A stretch of DNA of 44,095 nt from Candidatus Abyssobacteria bacterium SURF_5 (GTDB lineage Bacteria; Abyssobacteria; SURF-5): NCBI GenBank assembly GCA_003598085.1, contig QZKU01000101.1, positions 1 through 44,095 on the forward strand, read 5' to 3'. A model generated the notes under the pieces. That model did no database searches. It was not told the DNA's origin and worked only from the letters and a program-made list of their open reading frames with translations. The position numbers and the translations under genes are program-made. Positions 2,482 through 41,238 of the stretch are shown piece by piece (position 1 is the first letter of the stretch; each line of letters begins with the position of its first letter).

Positions 2482-5400
2482 ATGAACAAGTTGCCTTGGA
2501 AGCCGTGGCACAAGGTTGTGAAACTGCGAGACGATTTGAAGAGCGGAAAGCTGACGCTGAACATGTTTGCCGCGGACCTCTATGAAGTTTCAATGCAGCG
2601 CGGGAAGCAGCCTGTCTATGAGAATCCAGAGTCCTTCTTCGCGCTCACGTATCCCACATATAACCTTCGACAGTTGGTCCGTGACGTCGTGCATCGGCTT
2701 GACGCCAAAAATGATAAGGCTGTTCGGCAGTTGGAACTGACCTATGGGGGCGGCAAAACCCACACGCTGATCACGCTTCGTCATCTTGTGCACGATCCCG
2801 ATTCATTGCCTAATCTTCCAGCGGTTCAGGAATTCGCTCAGGAATTCGGACAGAAGCCGCCGAAATGCCGCATAGCCAGCCTCTGTTTCGATAAGCTCGA
2901 TGTCGAGAAAGGGATGGCCGTTCTCGATCCCTCAGGAAACAAGCGGACGCTGCAACAGCCGTGGAGCGTGCTGGCGTACCAGATTGCCGGCGATGCCGGA
3001 CTCAAACTTCTGCACGCAAAGGGAAAGGCCGAAGAGCGCGACACTGCCCCTGCGGAAAATCTTCTTTCAGAACTGATCGAGATTCCCACGAAAGAAAACC
3101 TCGGCATGCTCATTTTGATTGACGAGGTGCTGATGTATGCCTGTGAGAAAGTTGCGCAAGACGGCGTATGGCGGACAATGCTGATTAATTTCTTTCAATA
3201 CCTCACGCAGGCTGCGACTAAAGTCGATCGCTGCTGTATCGTTGCCTCTTTGCTGGCGACGGACCCCGCAAAAAGCGATAGTTTCGGCCGTCAGTTACTC
3301 GGAGACCTTTACGACATTTTCCGGCGCCAGCGAGAAGAAGCCGTCGAACCGGTGGTAAAGGAAGACGTAGCGGAAGTACTCTGTCGCAGATTCTTTACTC
3401 CCGAATCCGTAAAAGACCGTGGAGCATTTCGGCAACATGTTGTGGCGGCGCTGAAAGGGATTCAGGCGGTCGATGAACAAACGAGAAAGCAAGGCGCCGA
3501 AGCGGAAGATCGCTTCCTCAAAAGCTATCCATTCCATCCCGATCTTACTGATGTCTTCTATGGCAAATGGACGACCATGAATCGCTTTCAGAGAACTCGA
3601 GGGGTGCTAAGGACCTTCGCGCTTGCTCTTCGTGAAGCCGAAAAATGGGACACGAATCCTCTCATTGGGCCTGCCATTTTCCTCACGGCGCCGGATCGGG
3701 AAGGTTTATCGGAAGCCACCAGAGAGCTTGTTACGGTGGCCGATACCGAAGAGTCGGAAGGAAAGAAACAGGCCTGGACAGGCATTCTTGATGGAGAATT
3801 CTACAGAGCGCGGCAGATACAGGATGAATCAGGCGCTCTCAAAAACCGTGAAATCGAGCAAGCCGTCGTGACCACTTTCCTGCATTCTCAACCGCCTGGA
3901 AATTCCGCAAAGACCAGAGACCTGCTTGTGCTTTTGAGTTCTGCTCGTCCCGATAAAATCGAACTTGAGAAGGGACTCTCCAGGTGGGCTCAGGTCAGCC
4001 ACTGGCTTGACGATTCGCATACGGGGGTGGCGGATGGTCAGTTGCCGACTACCTGGAAGATGGGAAACCGGCCAAACCTCACACAGATGCACACGGTTGC
4101 CGCCAGAAATATATCCGAAGACGACGTAAGGGCTCAACTGCTCGATGAGATAAGTAAGGTCAAACCTTTAAAGGATGGCGCATCGGCAGCCGGAGCGCTC
4201 GTGCACGTCCTCCCTCTGAAACCTAAAGATATAGCTGATGATGGGGCGTTTCATTATGCGATCCTTAATCCTTCAGCCGCTTCGGATTCCGGAAAACCCA
4301 GTGCGGAGGCGGTGAGATTTCTGGATGAGACAACGGGGCCGGACAAGCCTCGTGTTTACCGGAACGCCGTCATATTGCTGGTTCCCTCACGTGAAGGTGT
4401 AGATTTGGCGATGATGCGAGTCCGGGACAAGCTCGCATGGGAAATTGTGAGGGAGGAAATAAAGAAACAGCAAAAGGATGGCAACATCGATCCCGCCCGG
4501 GCGCATACATTGCAGATATATATAGACAAGGCAAGAGGCCGAGTGCCTGAGGCTATCAGGCAGGCGTACTGCATAGTGGTCACGGTGTCGGAGAAAAATG
4601 ACGCACAGGCTTTCAAAATTACTGTTTCCGAAGATTTTCATTTCAGCATCATCAAGAACGATAAACGCTCAAGGATACAGGATACGCCGATAACCGCGGA
4701 AGCGATTCTGCCCACCGGTCCGTATAATCTTTGGCGTCAAGGCGAGACATCGCGCAGAGTGAAGGATTTATCAGGAGCGTTTGCCCAACTGCCGCATCTT
4801 CCGAAAATGCTGAAAACGGCCGCGATTCTCGAAACATTGGCGGCAGGATGCGAGCAGGGAACCTTCGTGCTCAGACTGACAAGGCCTGATCATTCATTCC
4901 GTACCTGGTGGATGTCACGACCCGATGAAAACGCCCTGAATGATCCGGCGCTTGAGCTTGTTCTTCCCGAGGCCGCGGAACTTGCCGATCTCCCTCCTGG
5001 CTTGCTGGCTCCGGGCAAGCTGCCGGAACTTTGGAAAAACGATGAAATCACGCTGAAGCAAGCCTTGGATTACTTCAACGGGCAGAACGTGGTACAGGTT
5101 GATAGAGGAGACTATCAGGAACCTCTTCAGATACCAAAAGCTGAGACTAAAATAGTGAGTGATGCGGTCGCTGCGGCTGTCGAAAAAGGAGACATCTGGT
5201 TGATTTCCGGACCGGCCAGCCTGCTTGCCGAAACAATTCCGGCAGGCGTGCTGCAGGAAAAGTCGATCCTCTGCAGGCCTCCAGACTCTGTGCTTCCCGC
5301 GGAAATCCTGCCCGGAATTCTGCCGGATGCCTGGAAGAACGATAAAACGACGGCTTTTTCCATTGCTACCTCTTTATCCATGCAGAGAGGAAAGACGCTT

Positions 5401-5796
5401 CCTTGGAAAACTGTGAAAGACGCCATCTCGGCTGCCCTACAAGCCCGTTTTATAGAGACTGACGAAAAGTCCGGCGATTGGCCGTGCGATTTTTCCGCCG
5501 CCAAATCTGCTAAGTTCAAGGTCATCTCCGACGGTGGAAGCGCCGAACGACCAAAGGGAGGATATTCACCGGGCACAAACAAACTATTCGCTTCAGCAGA
5601 ATTGGAGCCCTCCCAAATTCAGGATCTGGGCGATATCATCCATGAAATCCTTGAAATCAAAGCCAAGAATAATTTTGAAATTAAATTCAACGTGCAAATC
5701 GAAATCGGTGACGGCAAACAAAAACCACCTCCAGAAGTAGCCGAAGAACTCAACAAGCTGCTCAAGAATGTAAAAGATGATTTTCAATTGCAGTAA
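2482..5796 (+). CDS. DUF499 AAA-like ATPase
   Basis: This 1104-aa protein has an unusual Walker A, TYGGGKTH (Y88-G-G-G-K92-T-H), and a Walker B ending ILIDE with D214-E215. That combination with this length is typical of DUF499 ATPases, which occur in defence islands beside DUF1156 methylases. The remainder is a large region with several winged-helix-like stretches, and the C-terminus ends in a short charged segment. An AAGGAG ribosome site lies about 10 bases before the ATG. The gap to the DUF262 gene is 39 bases, so it is likely co-transcribed. The expected role is an NTP-driven motor or sensor coupling recognition to modification or cleavage; this is inferred from family context. No frame damage is seen. 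Confidence 0.82.
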   Translation: MNKLPWKPWHKVVKLRDDLKSGKLTLNMFAADLYEVSMQRGKQPVYENPESFFALTYPTYNLRQLVRDVVHRLDAKNDKAVRQLELTYGGGKTHTLITLRHLVHDPDSLPNLPAVQEFAQEFGQKPPKCRIASLCFDKLDVEKGMAVLDPSGNKRTLQQPWSVLAYQIAGDAGLKLLHAKGKAEERDTAPAENLLSELIEIPTKENLGMLILIDEVLMYACEKVAQDGVWRTMLINFFQYLTQAATKVDRCCIVASLLATDPAKSDSFGRQLLGDLYDIFRRQREEAVEPVVKEDVAEVLCRRFFTPESVKDRGAFRQHVVAALKGIQAVDEQTRKQGAEAEDRFLKSYPFHPDLTDVFYGKWTTMNRFQRTRGVLRTFALALREAEKWDTNPLIGPAIFLTAPDREGLSEATRELVTVADTEESEGKKQAWTGILDGEFYRARQIQDESGALKNREIEQAVVTTFLHSQPPGNSAKTRDLLVLLSSARPDKIELEKGLSRWAQVSHWLDDSHTGVADGQLPTTWKMGNRPNLTQMHTVAARNISEDDVRAQLLDEISKVKPLKDGASAAGALVHVLPLKPKDIADDGAFHYAILNPSAASDSGKPSAEAVRFLDETTGPDKPRVYRNAVILLVPSREGVDLAMMRVRDKLAWEIVREEIKKQQKDGNIDPARAHTLQIYIDKARGRVPEAIRQAYCIVVTVSEKNDAQAFKITVSEDFHFSIIKNDKRSRIQDTPITAEAILPTGPYNLWRQGETSRRVKDLSGAFAQLPHLPKMLKTAAILETLAAGCEQGTFVLRLTRPDHSFRTWWMSRPDENALNDPALELVLPEAAELADLPPGLLAPGKLPELWKNDEITLKQALDYFNGQNVVQVDRGDYQEPLQIPKAETKIVSDAVAAAVEKGDIWLISGPASLLAETIPAGVLQEKSILCRPPDSVLPAEILPGILPDAWKNDKTTAFSIATSLSMQRGKTLPWKTVKDAISAALQARFIETDEKSGDWPCDFSAAKSAKFKVISDGGSAERPKGGYSPGTNKLFASAELEPSQIQDLGDIIHEILEIKAKNNFEIKFNVQIEIGDGKQKPPPEVAEELNKLLKNVKDDFQLQ

Positions 5797-5848: not shown

Positions 5849-6715
5849 ATGAAGTATTTCAGCGAAAGAGAATATGGAGAACGGCCGCGGACTGAGGAAG
5901 AGATTCCACATGCTGTCTGGGGCGGCATCGTTGCGCTTGTTGAGGAATTAGTCACCAGAGGAGCATTCGGCCAGAGCTTTCCCGAAGAGTGCCCGGATGG
6001 TCAGGGTATAATCGGCACTAATGATAGGACTTTGTCTCTCTCAATTCAAGCAGAAATTCCCGGATTCAGTTTTCCATTGAATGCTGATGAAATTCCTGAT
6101 AATTTAGCACTCTTCGACTTTTTGGAATTCTGTCATTACCATGTTGCCGAACCTATAGAAGGAGGTTACCATAGTTTCTATAGGCATACACATCTTTCCT
6201 TCACATCGGGTGGTCAAGAAAGATTTCGTGAAAGAATAAACCGGATTTTTAGACGGAACGGTCTAGCTTACGAGCTTCGTGAAGACGGACAGGTGGAACG
6301 ATTGGCTCCCCCTGTCATTCAGGAAGCCCTCTCAGGAAGTATTTTCAAATCAGGAGATAGTAAACTAGATGAGTTGCTTGAAACTGCCCGGATCAAATTT
6401 CTAAATCCAAATCCTCAAATAAGGCGAGAGGCGCTAGAAAAGCTTTGGGACGCATGGGAGCGAATTAAAACGGTTGAACCTGGCAAAGGAAAGAGAGATT
6501 CTGCCTTAGTCATACTGAATAAAGCAGCGACAGAAACTAATTTCAGGGCGCTACTGGAAAAAGAAGCTCGCGAACTGACAGAGATAGGGAACCGTTTTCA
6601 TATCAGACATTCAGAAAAGGATCAGGTACCTCTCGAATCAGATAATTATGTTGATTACCTCTTTCACCGATTGTTCGCTATGATAACTTTACTGTTGAGG
6701 AGGAAATCGAAATGA
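5849..6715 (+). CDS. AbiJ/HEPN-like abortive-infection type protein
   Basis: This 288-aa protein has an N-terminal part starting YFSERE and a charged helical C-terminal part. The C-terminal region contains R249-F-H-I-R-H254, which fits the Rx4-6H signature of HEPN ribonucleases, followed by a hydrophobic helix near the end. The overall look (small N-terminal domain, then an all-helical domain with IGNRFHIRH) resembles AbiJ-type abortive-infection proteins; that assignment is from memory of the family and is not certain. It is soluble, with no signal peptide. The start has an AGGAAAAAGGG purine tract directly before the ATG. It follows the DUF499 gene after 52 bases and overlaps the next gene by 4 bases (ATGA), so the two are translationally coupled. 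Confidence 0.55.
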   Translation: MKYFSEREYGERPRTEEEIPHAVWGGIVALVEELVTRGAFGQSFPEECPDGQGIIGTNDRTLSLSIQAEIPGFSFPLNADEIPDNLALFDFLEFCHYHVAEPIEGGYHSFYRHTHLSFTSGGQERFRERINRIFRRNGLAYELREDGQVERLAPPVIQEALSGSIFKSGDSKLDELLETARIKFLNPNPQIRREALEKLWDAWERIKTVEPGKGKRDSALVILNKAATETNFRALLEKEARELTEIGNRFHIRHSEKDQVPLESDNYVDYLFHRLFAMITLLLRRKSK

Positions 6716-7038
6716 GCGGAAGAAGGAGGCGAGTGATAATACACCCAACCATCTGGAGCAACGGCAGCGGAACATATGGGATTGCAATTCCTGAACGTGA
6801 TCTGTGCCACTTTCCACGTCGGTGGACGAAAGTCTCTGTAGAAATTAATGGAGTTGTAGGCCGCTATCCGGTACGTTCTGATCTCCAGGATAACTTTTGG
6901 ACTACATGTTCAGAGCTTCGTGGAGGAGCAATAGGCCGATGGGTAAGAACGGAGGGTCTGACAACCTGGCCTCCCGGGAATCCTCCGACAGTGCGCCTAG
7001 AGCAAATTAGGGATAATCATTTCCGCTTGACCAGATAA
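6712..7038 (+). CDS. Small hypothetical protein coupled to the AbiJ/HEPN-like gene
   Basis: This 108-aa basic protein is not recognised. It starts with an Arg-rich patch (SGRRRRV), followed by alternating short hydrophobic segments suggesting a small beta-rich fold, with several Trp residues and a WPPGNPP turn. There is no signal peptide or membrane segment. Its ATG overlaps the stop of the upstream gene in an ATGA junction, which implies coupled translation and probably a functional partnership (antitoxin, nucleic-acid-binding or specificity subunit). No function is assigned. It is the last gene of the + strand defence-like block; a long repeat-rich non-coding stretch follows. Confidence 0.6.
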   Translation: MSGRRRRVIIHPTIWSNGSGTYGIAIPERDLCHFPRRWTKVSVEINGVVGRYPVRSDLQDNFWTTCSELRGGAIGRWVRTEGLTTWPPGNPPTVRLEQIRDNHFRLTR

Positions 7039-7595: not shown

Positions 7596-7799
7596 TTATT
7601 TGGCGGCTTGCTCTATCACGTCGAAAATGCGTTTGCTGATTTTCGGATGCAAAATCTTTCCCGCATGAAAGGGAATGATGATCCTTTTTCCGTCCTTCAT
7701 GTAGATTCTGTGACTGCCGCGACTCCGGATTAACTGGAATCCAGCTTTGAGGAGGAGGGTTTCCGCTTCTTGGGGAGTCAGACGCGGCTGTTTAGGCAA
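7596..7799 (-). CDS. hicA: HicA-type mRNA interferase toxin
   Basis: This 67-aa protein has the compact dsRBD-like HicA fold pattern: L-T-P-Q-E, a helix, KAGFQLIRSRGSH with the family's catalytic His at H30, RIY, then a basic IIIPFHAG strand. HicA toxins cleave mRNA and tmRNA independently of the ribosome and are neutralised by HicB. The length matches the family. It lies immediately downstream of the HicB gene and overlaps it by 8 bases, giving antitoxin-then-toxin order on the - strand. Family recognition is strong; activity in this host is untested. Confidence 0.88.
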   Translation of the reverse strand: MPKQPRLTPQEAETLLLKAGFQLIRSRGSHRIYMKDGKRIIIPFHAGKILHPKISKRIFDVIEQAAK

Positions 7800-8016
7800 C
7801 CTTTACCTCGATGGCGGTGGTGAGAATTTCCCGGCTAAGGCGCTCGGTGCGTTCGTCTTCCGATAATGTTTCCAGATAAAGCTCGATGGCTTCTCTTATG
7901 TTGTCGAGAACTTCCTCTAGTGATTCTCCCTGTGAATGGCATCCCTCAAGCTCGGGACAGTATGCAAAAAGACCCTGTTCGTCTTTCTCGACCACGACAC
8001 TCACTTTATATGGCAT
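7792..8016 (-). CDS. hicB: HicB-type antitoxin
   Basis: This 74-aa protein has the HicB pseudo-RNase H pattern: an N-terminal strand YKVSVVVEKDE, FAYCPELEGCHSQG, then a long amphipathic helix with EEVLDNIREAIELYLE. I chose the start at MPYKV because an AAGGAG ribosome site lies 7 bases upstream; an upstream in-frame ATG at 8055 lacks such a site. The role is to bind and neutralise HicA. The C-terminus is short and shows no obvious added DNA-binding domain, so autoregulation may rely on the core domain. Its stop overlaps hicA by 8 bases. A good promoter and a pair of direct heptamer repeats lie upstream. Confidence 0.88.
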   Translation of the reverse strand: MPYKVSVVVEKDEQGLFAYCPELEGCHSQGESLEEVLDNIREAIELYLETLSEDERTERLSREILTTAIEVKVA

Positions 8017-8068
8017 TTGGTTCTCCTTCTTGCCACCGTCCTGTCTGTAGTGCAATCGCCGACATTCG

Positions 8069-8086
8069 TCACGCGGGTATCACGCG
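8069..8086 (-). promoter_or_regulatory. Candidate HicB operator: direct heptamer repeats
   Basis: Two copies of TCACGCG (8069-8075 and 8080-8086) are spaced 11 bp start to start, about one helical turn. They fall around the expected transcription start of the hicBA promoter, where a bound repressor would block initiation. This is a pattern seen in sequence; no binding evidence exists. Confidence 0.3.
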
Positions 8087-8096
8087 ACGCATCCAC

Positions 8097-8125
8097 ATCA
8101 TATCATTGGGAATAAAGAAAATCAA
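8097..8125 (-). promoter_or_regulatory. Sigma-70-type promoter for hicBA
   Basis: On the - strand, TTGATT (8125-8120) and TATGAT (8102-8097) are separated by exactly 17 bases. This is a good match to the -35/-10 consensus and points at hicB, whose start codon is about 80 bases downstream. The UTR between them contains the direct repeats. Confidence 0.5.
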
Positions 8126-8724
8126 ATGGGCAGACTGGAGCCCAAAGGGGAAAGAGAAAGACCGGAGCCGGCAGTAACGGCAGTTCAAAGTTCCGGGTTC
8201 AAGGTTCAAGGTTCAAAGTCGAGCCGAAGCGGCGAGAGCAATGGAAAATCGAAAATCGACGATAGAGAGGAGGAGAAGTTCTTTTCAAGAGCCCTCACCT
8301 TAGTCCTCTCCCGATGGGAGAGGAGACGAAGAGAGATCCTTCGGCTGCGCTCAGGATGACCCCGCGAGCGGCGCGGTCAGGGAAAATGCAGGCAAGATGC
8401 CTGCGCTACCATGAAAGGACAGTTCCAAGTTCAAGGTTTCAGGTTCAAAGTTGAAAGTCGAGCCCTCACCTTAATCCTCTCCCGATGGGAGAGGAGACGA
8501 AGAGAGATTCTTCGCGCTCGCTCAGAATGACCCGCGGGGCGGACGTTTCCGATAAAGCAGAGGTTAGTGCATATTTTCGTGTCGTTTCGTGCGCTTTCGT
8601 GGCGAACAGTCTTCGTCATTCTTTGTGCCTTTGTGTCTTGGTGGTTCGATTACAGTCTTTCGGGCACGGTCCCGCGAGGCGCGGGATGCCCCTACATTGG
8701 CCGTTTCAAAGAGAGAGATTGTAT
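8126..8724. repeat. Second mosaic repeat stretch, no gene
   Basis: No credible gene is seen. GTTCAAGG-type tandem pieces occur from about 8170 and again near 8420, with two copies of the CCCTCACCTTA(A/G)TCCTCTCCCGATGGGAGAGG block (from about 8290 and 8463). The AATGCAGGCAAGATGCCTGCG block is also present (about 8385), with a TTCGGCTGCGCTCAGGATGA-type piece. A hairpin unit lies at 8658-8697, with outer stem GGGCA/TGCCC and inner stem CCCGCG/CGCGGG; a near-identical copy lies at 11497-11535. Confidence 0.75.
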
Positions 8725-9879
8725 CTACGGCATAGTGTCGCGGCCCTTCAGCAATTCATAGGCGATGTTGTTTCTCTGTATCTGGGCGGTGCCCCCGGCG
8801 ATTGTCCAGCCGCGCGCGAATCTGACCAGCCACTCCATCGGATATTCCTTCGAGTAGCCGTATCCGCCGTATATCTCGAGCGCCCTGTTGGTCACCTCGA
8901 CCGCCATCTCATTGGAGAACATTTTGGCGATGGCCGTCTCCAGACGCGACGGGAATCCGTCCTCGCCATTGATGAGGGCGCGATAGATGAGTAGCCGGGC
9001 CGCCTCGATCTTGACTTTCATCTCGGCGAGCATCCACTGGATGCCCTGGAACTTGCTGATCAGTTGGCCGAACTGCGCTCGCTCCTGCGAGTACTGCAAC
9101 GCCTTCTCGTAGGCGCACCGGGCGGTCACCAGCGACATGGTCGAGTTACCGCACCGCTCGGCGTTAAACGCCATCATCATTTTCTGGAACCCGTTGCGCT
9201 CGATGAGCACGTTCTCGGCGGGAACGATGGCATCCTCCATGAAAAGCTGATTCTGATTGATGCCCGCCATATTCGGCTCGGACTTGCCGATGACAAAGCC
9301 CGGCGTGTCCCGGTCGATGATGATGGCGCCGATCCCTTCAATTCCCTCGATCTCGCCGAACCGGCAGTACACCGCAAACGCCGTTGCGGTCTCGGCATTG
9401 CTGATGAAGCTTTTCGTGCCGTTTACTACATAATGGTCGCCGTTGCGGACGGCGCGGGTTGTCAGATGAGTCGCCGCCGAGCCGGCCTCCGGCTCGGTGA
9501 TCGAGATGGCCACATGCCCTTCTCCCCGGCAGACCGGCGGGATGTACTTCTGCTTCTGCCGCTCGGTCCCGTAACCCGCGATCGCCCTGATCGGGCCGAA
9601 GTTGGCGCCGAAGATGCTTTCGGCAAACAGCGGGTCGACCCTGCCGACTTCCTCCATAGCGATGATGGCGTCGACCGGGCTGCGCCCGCCGCCGCCGAAC
9701 TCCTCCGGAAGGGTCATTCCGAACAGGCCCATGTCGCGCATTTTATCCAGCAAGTTTCGGGGGATCGGCTCTCTGCCCTTGTCGCGGAAGCTGAAGGCGA
9801 CGGGACGGATGTCCCTTTCCGCGAAGGCGCGCACTGTCTTGCGGAGCATTTCCTGTTCTTCGTTCCACTTGAAATCCAT
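8725..9879 (-). CDS. Acyl-CoA dehydrogenase family protein
   Basis: This 384-aa flavoprotein is full length for the family. It shows an N-terminal helical domain, TEPEAGSA at 129-136, SFISNA, QERAQFG at 265-271, and the C-terminal EIYGGYGYSKEYP at 335-347. The start at MDFKW is chosen for its AAGGAGG site 7 bases upstream. In the usual IYEGT position, the catalytic Glu is replaced by Gly (I360-A-G-G-T364), while E241-R242 sits where isovaleryl-CoA and long-chain dehydrogenases carry their alternative catalytic base. It therefore probably uses E241. The substrate is unknown. It lies downstream of a gamma-CA-like gene and an SDR on the same strand, likely one operon for CoA-thioester metabolism. 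Confidence 0.9.
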   Translation of the reverse strand: MDFKWNEEQEMLRKTVRAFAERDIRPVAFSFRDKGREPIPRNLLDKMRDMGLFGMTLPEEFGGGGRSPVDAIIAMEEVGRVDPLFAESIFGANFGPIRAIAGYGTERQKQKYIPPVCRGEGHVAISITEPEAGSAATHLTTRAVRNGDHYVVNGTKSFISNAETATAFAVYCRFGEIEGIEGIGAIIIDRDTPGFVIGKSEPNMAGINQNQLFMEDAIVPAENVLIERNGFQKMMMAFNAERCGNSTMSLVTARCAYEKALQYSQERAQFGQLISKFQGIQWMLAEMKVKIEAARLLIYRALINGEDGFPSRLETAIAKMFSNEMAVEVTNRALEIYGGYGYSKEYPMEWLVRFARGWTIAGGTAQIQRNNIAYELLKGRDTMP

Positions 9880-41139: not shown

Positions 41140-41238
41140 TGGCGGGAAGGTGCAGGAATCGAACCTACCCGGGACCGCTCTCACGGCCCCTAACCTGGAT
41201 TTGAAGTCCAGTGCCCACACCAGCAGGCCTACCTTCCC
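41140..41238 (-). tRNA. selC: Selenocysteine tRNA, anticodon UCA
   Basis: Read on the - strand, the gene has an 8-bp acceptor stem (GGGAAGGT with ACCTTCCC) followed by G and an encoded CCA. The anticodon arm is CTGGA-CTTCAAA-TCCAG, with TCA at 41204-41202. A long GC-rich variable arm and the T-arm loop GTTCGATTC follow. The long acceptor stem, long extra arm and UCA anticodon together identify tRNA-Sec; E. coli selC shares the same anticodon arm. The organism is therefore likely to read UGA as selenocysteine through SelA/SelB/SelD encoded elsewhere. Confidence 0.95.

Follow-up and report, generated by a model that had tools for sequence, protein, structure and literature searches.

Our analysis covers a window of 44,095 nucleotides, the whole of contig C101 of Candidatus Abyssobacteria bacterium SURF_5, and centers on two genes on its forward strand. 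We consider it likely that the 288-aa product of the first is a stand-alone abortive-infection (Abi) effector of the AbiJ-NTD4 family and a probable auxiliary or back-up component of an Hma defense operon, and that the 108-aa product of the second belongs to a separate, rare family and is coupled to it here without being a dedicated antitoxin or a subunit. The original prediction had described two coupled reading frames, and both were confirmed, at 5849-6715 and 6712-7038, with the ATG of the second (6712) overlapping the stop TGA of the first (6713-6715) in an ATGA. It had also placed them at the edge of a defense block. This is right for the right-hand side; the block itself is larger than the window and continues to the left on another contig, C53. 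A DUF1156 search of the source genome revealed a reading frame still open where C53 stops, and positions 1-99 of the window are identical to the last 99 bases of that contig (G000:C53 120223-120321; L108 12224-12322). The defense operon therefore extends leftward onto C53, and its joined order is HmaA, XRE/ImmA-IrrE, HmaB, HEC-05/GmrSD_N, HmaC/DUF499, AbiJ-NTD4, and the 108-aa gene:

On C53: HmaA helicase (E=4.9e-153)
L108 ~7948-9096, between HmaA and HmaB: XRE/ImmA-IrrE HTH-peptidase (best PADLOC matches RmrA, 2.9e-17, and capP, 2.9e-16)
2-673, + strand: C terminus of the HmaB/DUF1156-type adenine methylase (remainder on C53, where HmaB matches with E=1e-116)
682-2442, + strand: GmrSD_N (DUF262) protein (Pfam PF03235, E=1.3e-32; PADLOC HEC-05, E=2.1e-236)
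2482-5796, + strand: DUF499/HmaC AAA+ ATPase (DUF499, E=1.5e-16; HmaC, E=1e-72)
5849-6715, + strand: 288-aa AbiJ-NTD4 protein (N-domain ~3-161; five-helix, putatively HEPN-like C-domain ~165-288; invariant GNxxxIRHxE at 247-256)
6712-7038, + strand: basic 108-aa protein from an unnamed family, ATGA-coupled to the 288-aa gene

Across C53 and the window, HmaA, HmaB, and HmaC/DUF499 thus stand in one gene row, as in Hma, which was named and defined as a three-gene system in PMC8565338 and has been re-classified as type-1 BREX-related (PMC12839542). In contrast to that definition, the row here additionally encodes the XRE/ImmA-IrrE protein, the GmrSD-type HEC-05 nuclease, and the AbiJ-NTD4 and 108-aa proteins. 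The HTH-peptidase gene overlaps the HmaA stop, combines an HTH with an ImmA/IrrE-type peptidase, and is a possible regulator of the operon. Reading the translations, we found a C-terminal HNH-like HVDHIHP motif in the GmrSD_N protein and a Walker-A-like GGGKTH about 90 residues from the start of the DUF499 protein. Such a short stretch before the P-loop leaves no room for a fused N-terminal HEPN, unlike many type-1 systems, in which a HEPN domain is fused to the DUF499 ATPase (PMC12839542). Separate HEPN, HNH, and other nucleases have been described as auxiliary or back-up effectors in such systems (PMC12839542), and the separate, putatively HEPN-like protein encoded here beside the DUF499 core resembles them in this respect.

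Family membership of the 288-aa protein is clear in its N-terminal part, where Pfam AbiJ_NTD4 (PF18863) matches residues 3-161 (E=1.3e-14) with 55.4 bits against a curated cut-off of 34. Additionally, PADLOC PDC-S32 covers the full length of the protein (residues 1-283, E=3.5e-60), and an unnamed phage family, phrog_20667, also matches it (E=5.1e-59). The first two matches bear out the description of the gene as AbiJ-like, and AbiJ_NTD4 matched all 52 aligned homologues. By these profiles, the protein is a full-length member of an architecture known since 2013, in which AbiJ-NTD4 is fused to an AbiJ-type HEPN domain (Anantharaman et al. 2013, PMC3710099). It shares with that architecture the AbiJ_NTD4 match across the length of the N-domain, the PDC-S32 match over 283 residues, a helical C-domain, and a conserved histidine at the helix-3/loop position; it differs in that the arginine of Rx4-6H is unconserved in its branch, where the motif GNxxxIRHxE is invariant instead. 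The family is therefore already described, and an auxiliary role for HEPN proteins in these DUF499 systems has also been proposed (PMC12839542), although AbiJ is absent from the main text of that paper and the AbiJ-NTD4 fusion is not singled out there.

The C-domain was examined in an AlphaFold2 model built from a 52-sequence alignment (pLDDT 91.7). The model shows an alpha+beta N-domain followed by five C-domain helices (171-184, 189-206, 215-226, 230-249, and 265-286), in agreement with the helical C terminus expected for this protein. Its topology fits the HEPN layout given in PMC3710099, and from this topology and the literature a HEPN-like C-domain is plausible. The claim that the protein is HEPN-like stands to that extent, and fold comparison added nothing to it. 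Foldseek returned no significant structural match to the model in PDB and BFVD, the only HEPN protein among the matches listed being HepT of 6m6u at rank 5 with a noise-level E of 1.6. Furthermore, Pfam HEPN models matched the C-domain in none of the 52 members, and an hhalign comparison with four Ymh HEPN sequences, small and underpowered, was empty.

The string RFHIRH is indeed present at residues 249-254, and it had been read as a HEPN-type Rx4H with R249 and H254 as the catalytic pair. Shuffled versions of the protein contain a mean of 0.81 RxxxxH, and 92% of them contain some Rx4-6H; an Rx4H is thus expected by chance and marks nothing by itself. The family alignment is more informative. 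Among its 80 sequences, 79 extend into the motif region, and in all 79 G247, N248, I252, R253, H254, and E256 are invariant (G247-N248-x3-I-R253-H254-x-E256), together with L199, W200, E204, R205, K207, L243, and R274. By contrast, position 249 is variable (S in 40 of the aligned homologues, the rest mostly N, T, or Q), and no arginine is conserved at a spacing of 4 to 6 from H254. R249 is consequently no feature of the family, the canonical Rx4-6H arginine is unconserved, and of the proposed pair H254 is retained and R249 dropped. Some HEPN families keep the histidine and lose the arginine, and other basic residues possibly substitute for it (PMC3710099). Since the canonical arginine is unconserved, a different residue would have to serve in catalysis, with R253 as the candidate stand-in. 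The residues worth mutating are accordingly N248, R253, H254, and E256 rather than R249.

This absence of the canonical arginine, together with the lack of a significant fold or profile match for the C-domain, could also be read as a sign that the domain is an RNA-binding or structural helical bundle and no active HEPN RNase; some HEPN families are noted to bind RNA but leave it uncut (PMC3710099). We regard this as rather unlikely, because the invariant N, R, H, and E residues cluster at the position expected for a HEPN active site. In the model, G247-N248 end the penultimate helix (230-249), H254 lies in the loop that follows, and the invariant E204, R205, and K207 terminate helix 189-206.

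For the 108-aa gene, codon usage gives a log-odds of -0.18, like that of off-frame DNA, and its coding status is therefore credible through homology. The family was found in only five genomes, including the source genome, among the 1978 sampled over all genome searches. One relative is encoded by an alphaproteobacterium (G024; 32% identity, E=1.2e-4), and a profile search added three more, all in genomes sharing their phylum with a Chloroflexota locus (E=2.4e-24, 9.5e-24, and 5.0e-33), two of them with pairwise identities of 43% and 34%. The members share the pattern TxWxNG..GYG..D..F..W..V..FW..C.EL..IG.W..GL..WP.G.PP, with W15, N17, G18, Y22, G23, D30, F34, W38, F62, W63, L69, W77, W86, G89, P91, P92, and F104 in common. 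Relatives were found neither in plasmids, phages, PDB, and IMG/VR, nor by single-sequence patterns in genome contigs, nor in the genome samples drawn around G005, G013, G010, and G018. As had been supposed, the protein belongs to no named family: among the libraries scanned, neither Pfam nor NCBIfam nor PHROG has a name for it, none of the five members has a significant Pfam match, and no PDB chain matches it significantly. The family would deserve a database entry of its own. The accompanying description of a small, basic, beta-rich protein is correct as to charge (pI 11.2), whereas the beta-rich part is only weakly indicated, since the single-sequence AlphaFold2 model reaches a pLDDT of just 45.

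Whether the two genes form a dedicated pair, as the original prediction proposed, can be judged from co-occurrence. The homologous loci of the 288-aa protein number 90 (8 plasmid, 80 genomic, and 2 viral-contig loci, mostly at 40-58% identity), and none of them encodes a relative of the 108-aa protein. Conversely, no AbiJ or DUF1156 relative was found near the relatives of the 108-aa protein, and other Hma/DUF3780 queries gave noise-level matches there. The genes that adjoin these relatives are FtsK/RNase J-like, peptidase, PBP/SurE/IlvE, and Rieske-type, housekeeping names that were read from the translations. In G024, both proteins are encoded on the same 3.52-Mb contig, with the AbiJ-NTD4 gene (L088) at ~3.08 Mb and the small gene at 1.41 Mb, ~1.67 Mb apart. 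Since its relatives live apart from AbiJ-NTD4 genes, the 108-aa family is independent of AbiJ-NTD4, and by the refuting condition that the original prediction itself had set, homologues occurring without the partner, the idea of a dedicated partner is disfavored across all 90 loci.

A toxin-antitoxin pair, in which the 108-aa protein would bind and silence a HEPN-like toxin and the coupling would ensure stoichiometric synthesis, draws on the ATGA overlap, on GAGGAGG, a strong ribosome-binding sequence immediately before the 108-aa ATG, and on the small basic second gene, a common antitoxin layout. Against it stand the partner's absence from the 90 loci, where many homologues of the 288-aa protein are seemingly stand-alone, the unrelated surroundings of the 108-aa relatives, and the separation of the two genes in G024. 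Moreover, an ATGA-type overlap recurs in the same operon, between HmaA and the HTH-peptidase. Judged on these sequence comparisons, a dedicated toxin-antitoxin pair is unlikely, indeed improbable, and the 108-aa protein is probably a passenger and not the dedicated antidote of its neighbor. Less probable still, to the point of being a long shot, is that an unnamed family of basic ~100-aa proteins living freely elsewhere has been captured here as the coupled regulator of a HEPN-like effector guarding Hma; if true, this would make a three-layer defense operon in which HEPN proteins are controlled in a new way. The conspicuous ATGA coupling in this operon marks no conserved gene pair.

The surroundings of the 288-aa homologues bear on its relation to DUF499. 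In one locus, L011, a homologue with 53% identity begins 19 nt after a DUF1156 methylase gene and ends 8 nt before a PLD-helicase gene, inside an operon of the DUF499/DUF3780 type (type-2 DUF499). The window and L011 are the only ones among the 91 loci (the 90 homologous loci plus the window) with an AbiJ gene beside a DUF499 gene. It had been suggested that the two proteins are extra subunits of the DUF499 system; in the light of L011 the 288-aa protein may have such a place, as an auxiliary effector, and the part concerning the 108-aa protein found no support. The stronger form of the suggestion, that both are working Hma subunits needed for defense, with the 108-aa protein acting, for example, as a nucleic-acid-binding specificity factor, would account for two consecutive same-strand genes at the end of the Hma operon, for the AbiJ-NTD4 gene inside the L011 operon, and for the very basic character of the small protein. 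We find it improbable that this is so, given that the association with DUF499 is confined to two loci, the 108-aa protein is absent from L011, and Hma is defined by three genes (PMC8565338).

A better-founded alternative is that the AbiJ-NTD4 protein is an unrelated defense gene that landed beside Hma and works alone. The mixed neighbors of its homologues, the 52-nt gap that precedes the 288-aa gene, and the atypical codon usage of that gene (neutral as coding evidence) all fit this explanation, and with only 2 of 91 loci beside DUF499 the link to Hma may reflect nothing beyond defense-island clustering. This could well be the case, although we lean against it, because the 19- and 8-nt gaps between the L011 homologue and its flanking core genes argue for repeated recruitment. 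Because the 53% homologue lies inside a type-2 DUF499 operon, the 288-aa protein is best read as an auxiliary abortive-infection effector. Its N-domain would probably sense a phage or counter-defense signal, and the HEPN-like C-domain would then probably cut RNA by means of the invariant N248, R253, H254, and E256 and stop the cell. As the last defense gene product of a complete Hma operon, it would probably act as an auxiliary or back-up effector, serving a locus whose DUF499 ATPase is without the HEPN fusion of many relatives; the 108-aa protein, from its separate rare family, would merely happen to be coupled here, as neither antitoxin nor subunit. Together, the two loci cleanly illustrate how AbiJ-NTD4 effectors are recruited to DUF499-centered operons, with two cases in two operon types.

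Other neighbors of the homologues are varied. Upstream on the same strand, AbiEii was found in 9 of 53 cases, and AbiEii/AbiJ-NTD4 is a recurrent nucleotidyltransferase-toxin arrangement. Genes for a Gabija helicase and a type III methylase are among the further neighbors. ORFs of ~360-400 aa stand right before the AbiJ-NTD4 gene in L024, L031, L036, L037, L041, L044, L052, L053, and similar loci, which are listed by upstream ORF size and not by locus-by-locus assignment to AbiEii. The downstream side also varies, often with nothing closely coupled and elsewhere with a 210-aa protein; the neighbors there include AbiJ_NTD3 (7 of 43), Hypoth_Ymh (4 of 43), SspB (3 of 43), and pAgo (2 of 43). In an alphaproteobacterial group (L004, L049, L058-L061, and L069), the AbiJ-NTD4 gene overlaps by ~10 nt a gene for a 440-aa AbiJ_NTD3 protein, which has a weak DUF559 (nuclease-like) match. 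As a conserved coupled pair, AbiJ-NTD4/AbiJ_NTD3 is more convincing than the 288-aa/108-aa pair.

A promoter scan remained at chance level, and five terminator-like sites were found against 2.0 expected, all on the opposite strand. The source genome carries a second DUF1156 methylase (G000:C36:8141-8341, - strand), which suggests another DUF499-type system. Just downstream of the two genes lies a HicA/HicB-type toxin-antitoxin pair (7596-8055, - strand; HicA_toxin, 1.7e-13; HicB_lk_antitox, 1.7e-09), and farther along the contig ARAGORN identified a selenocysteine tRNA at 41140-41238 (- strand).
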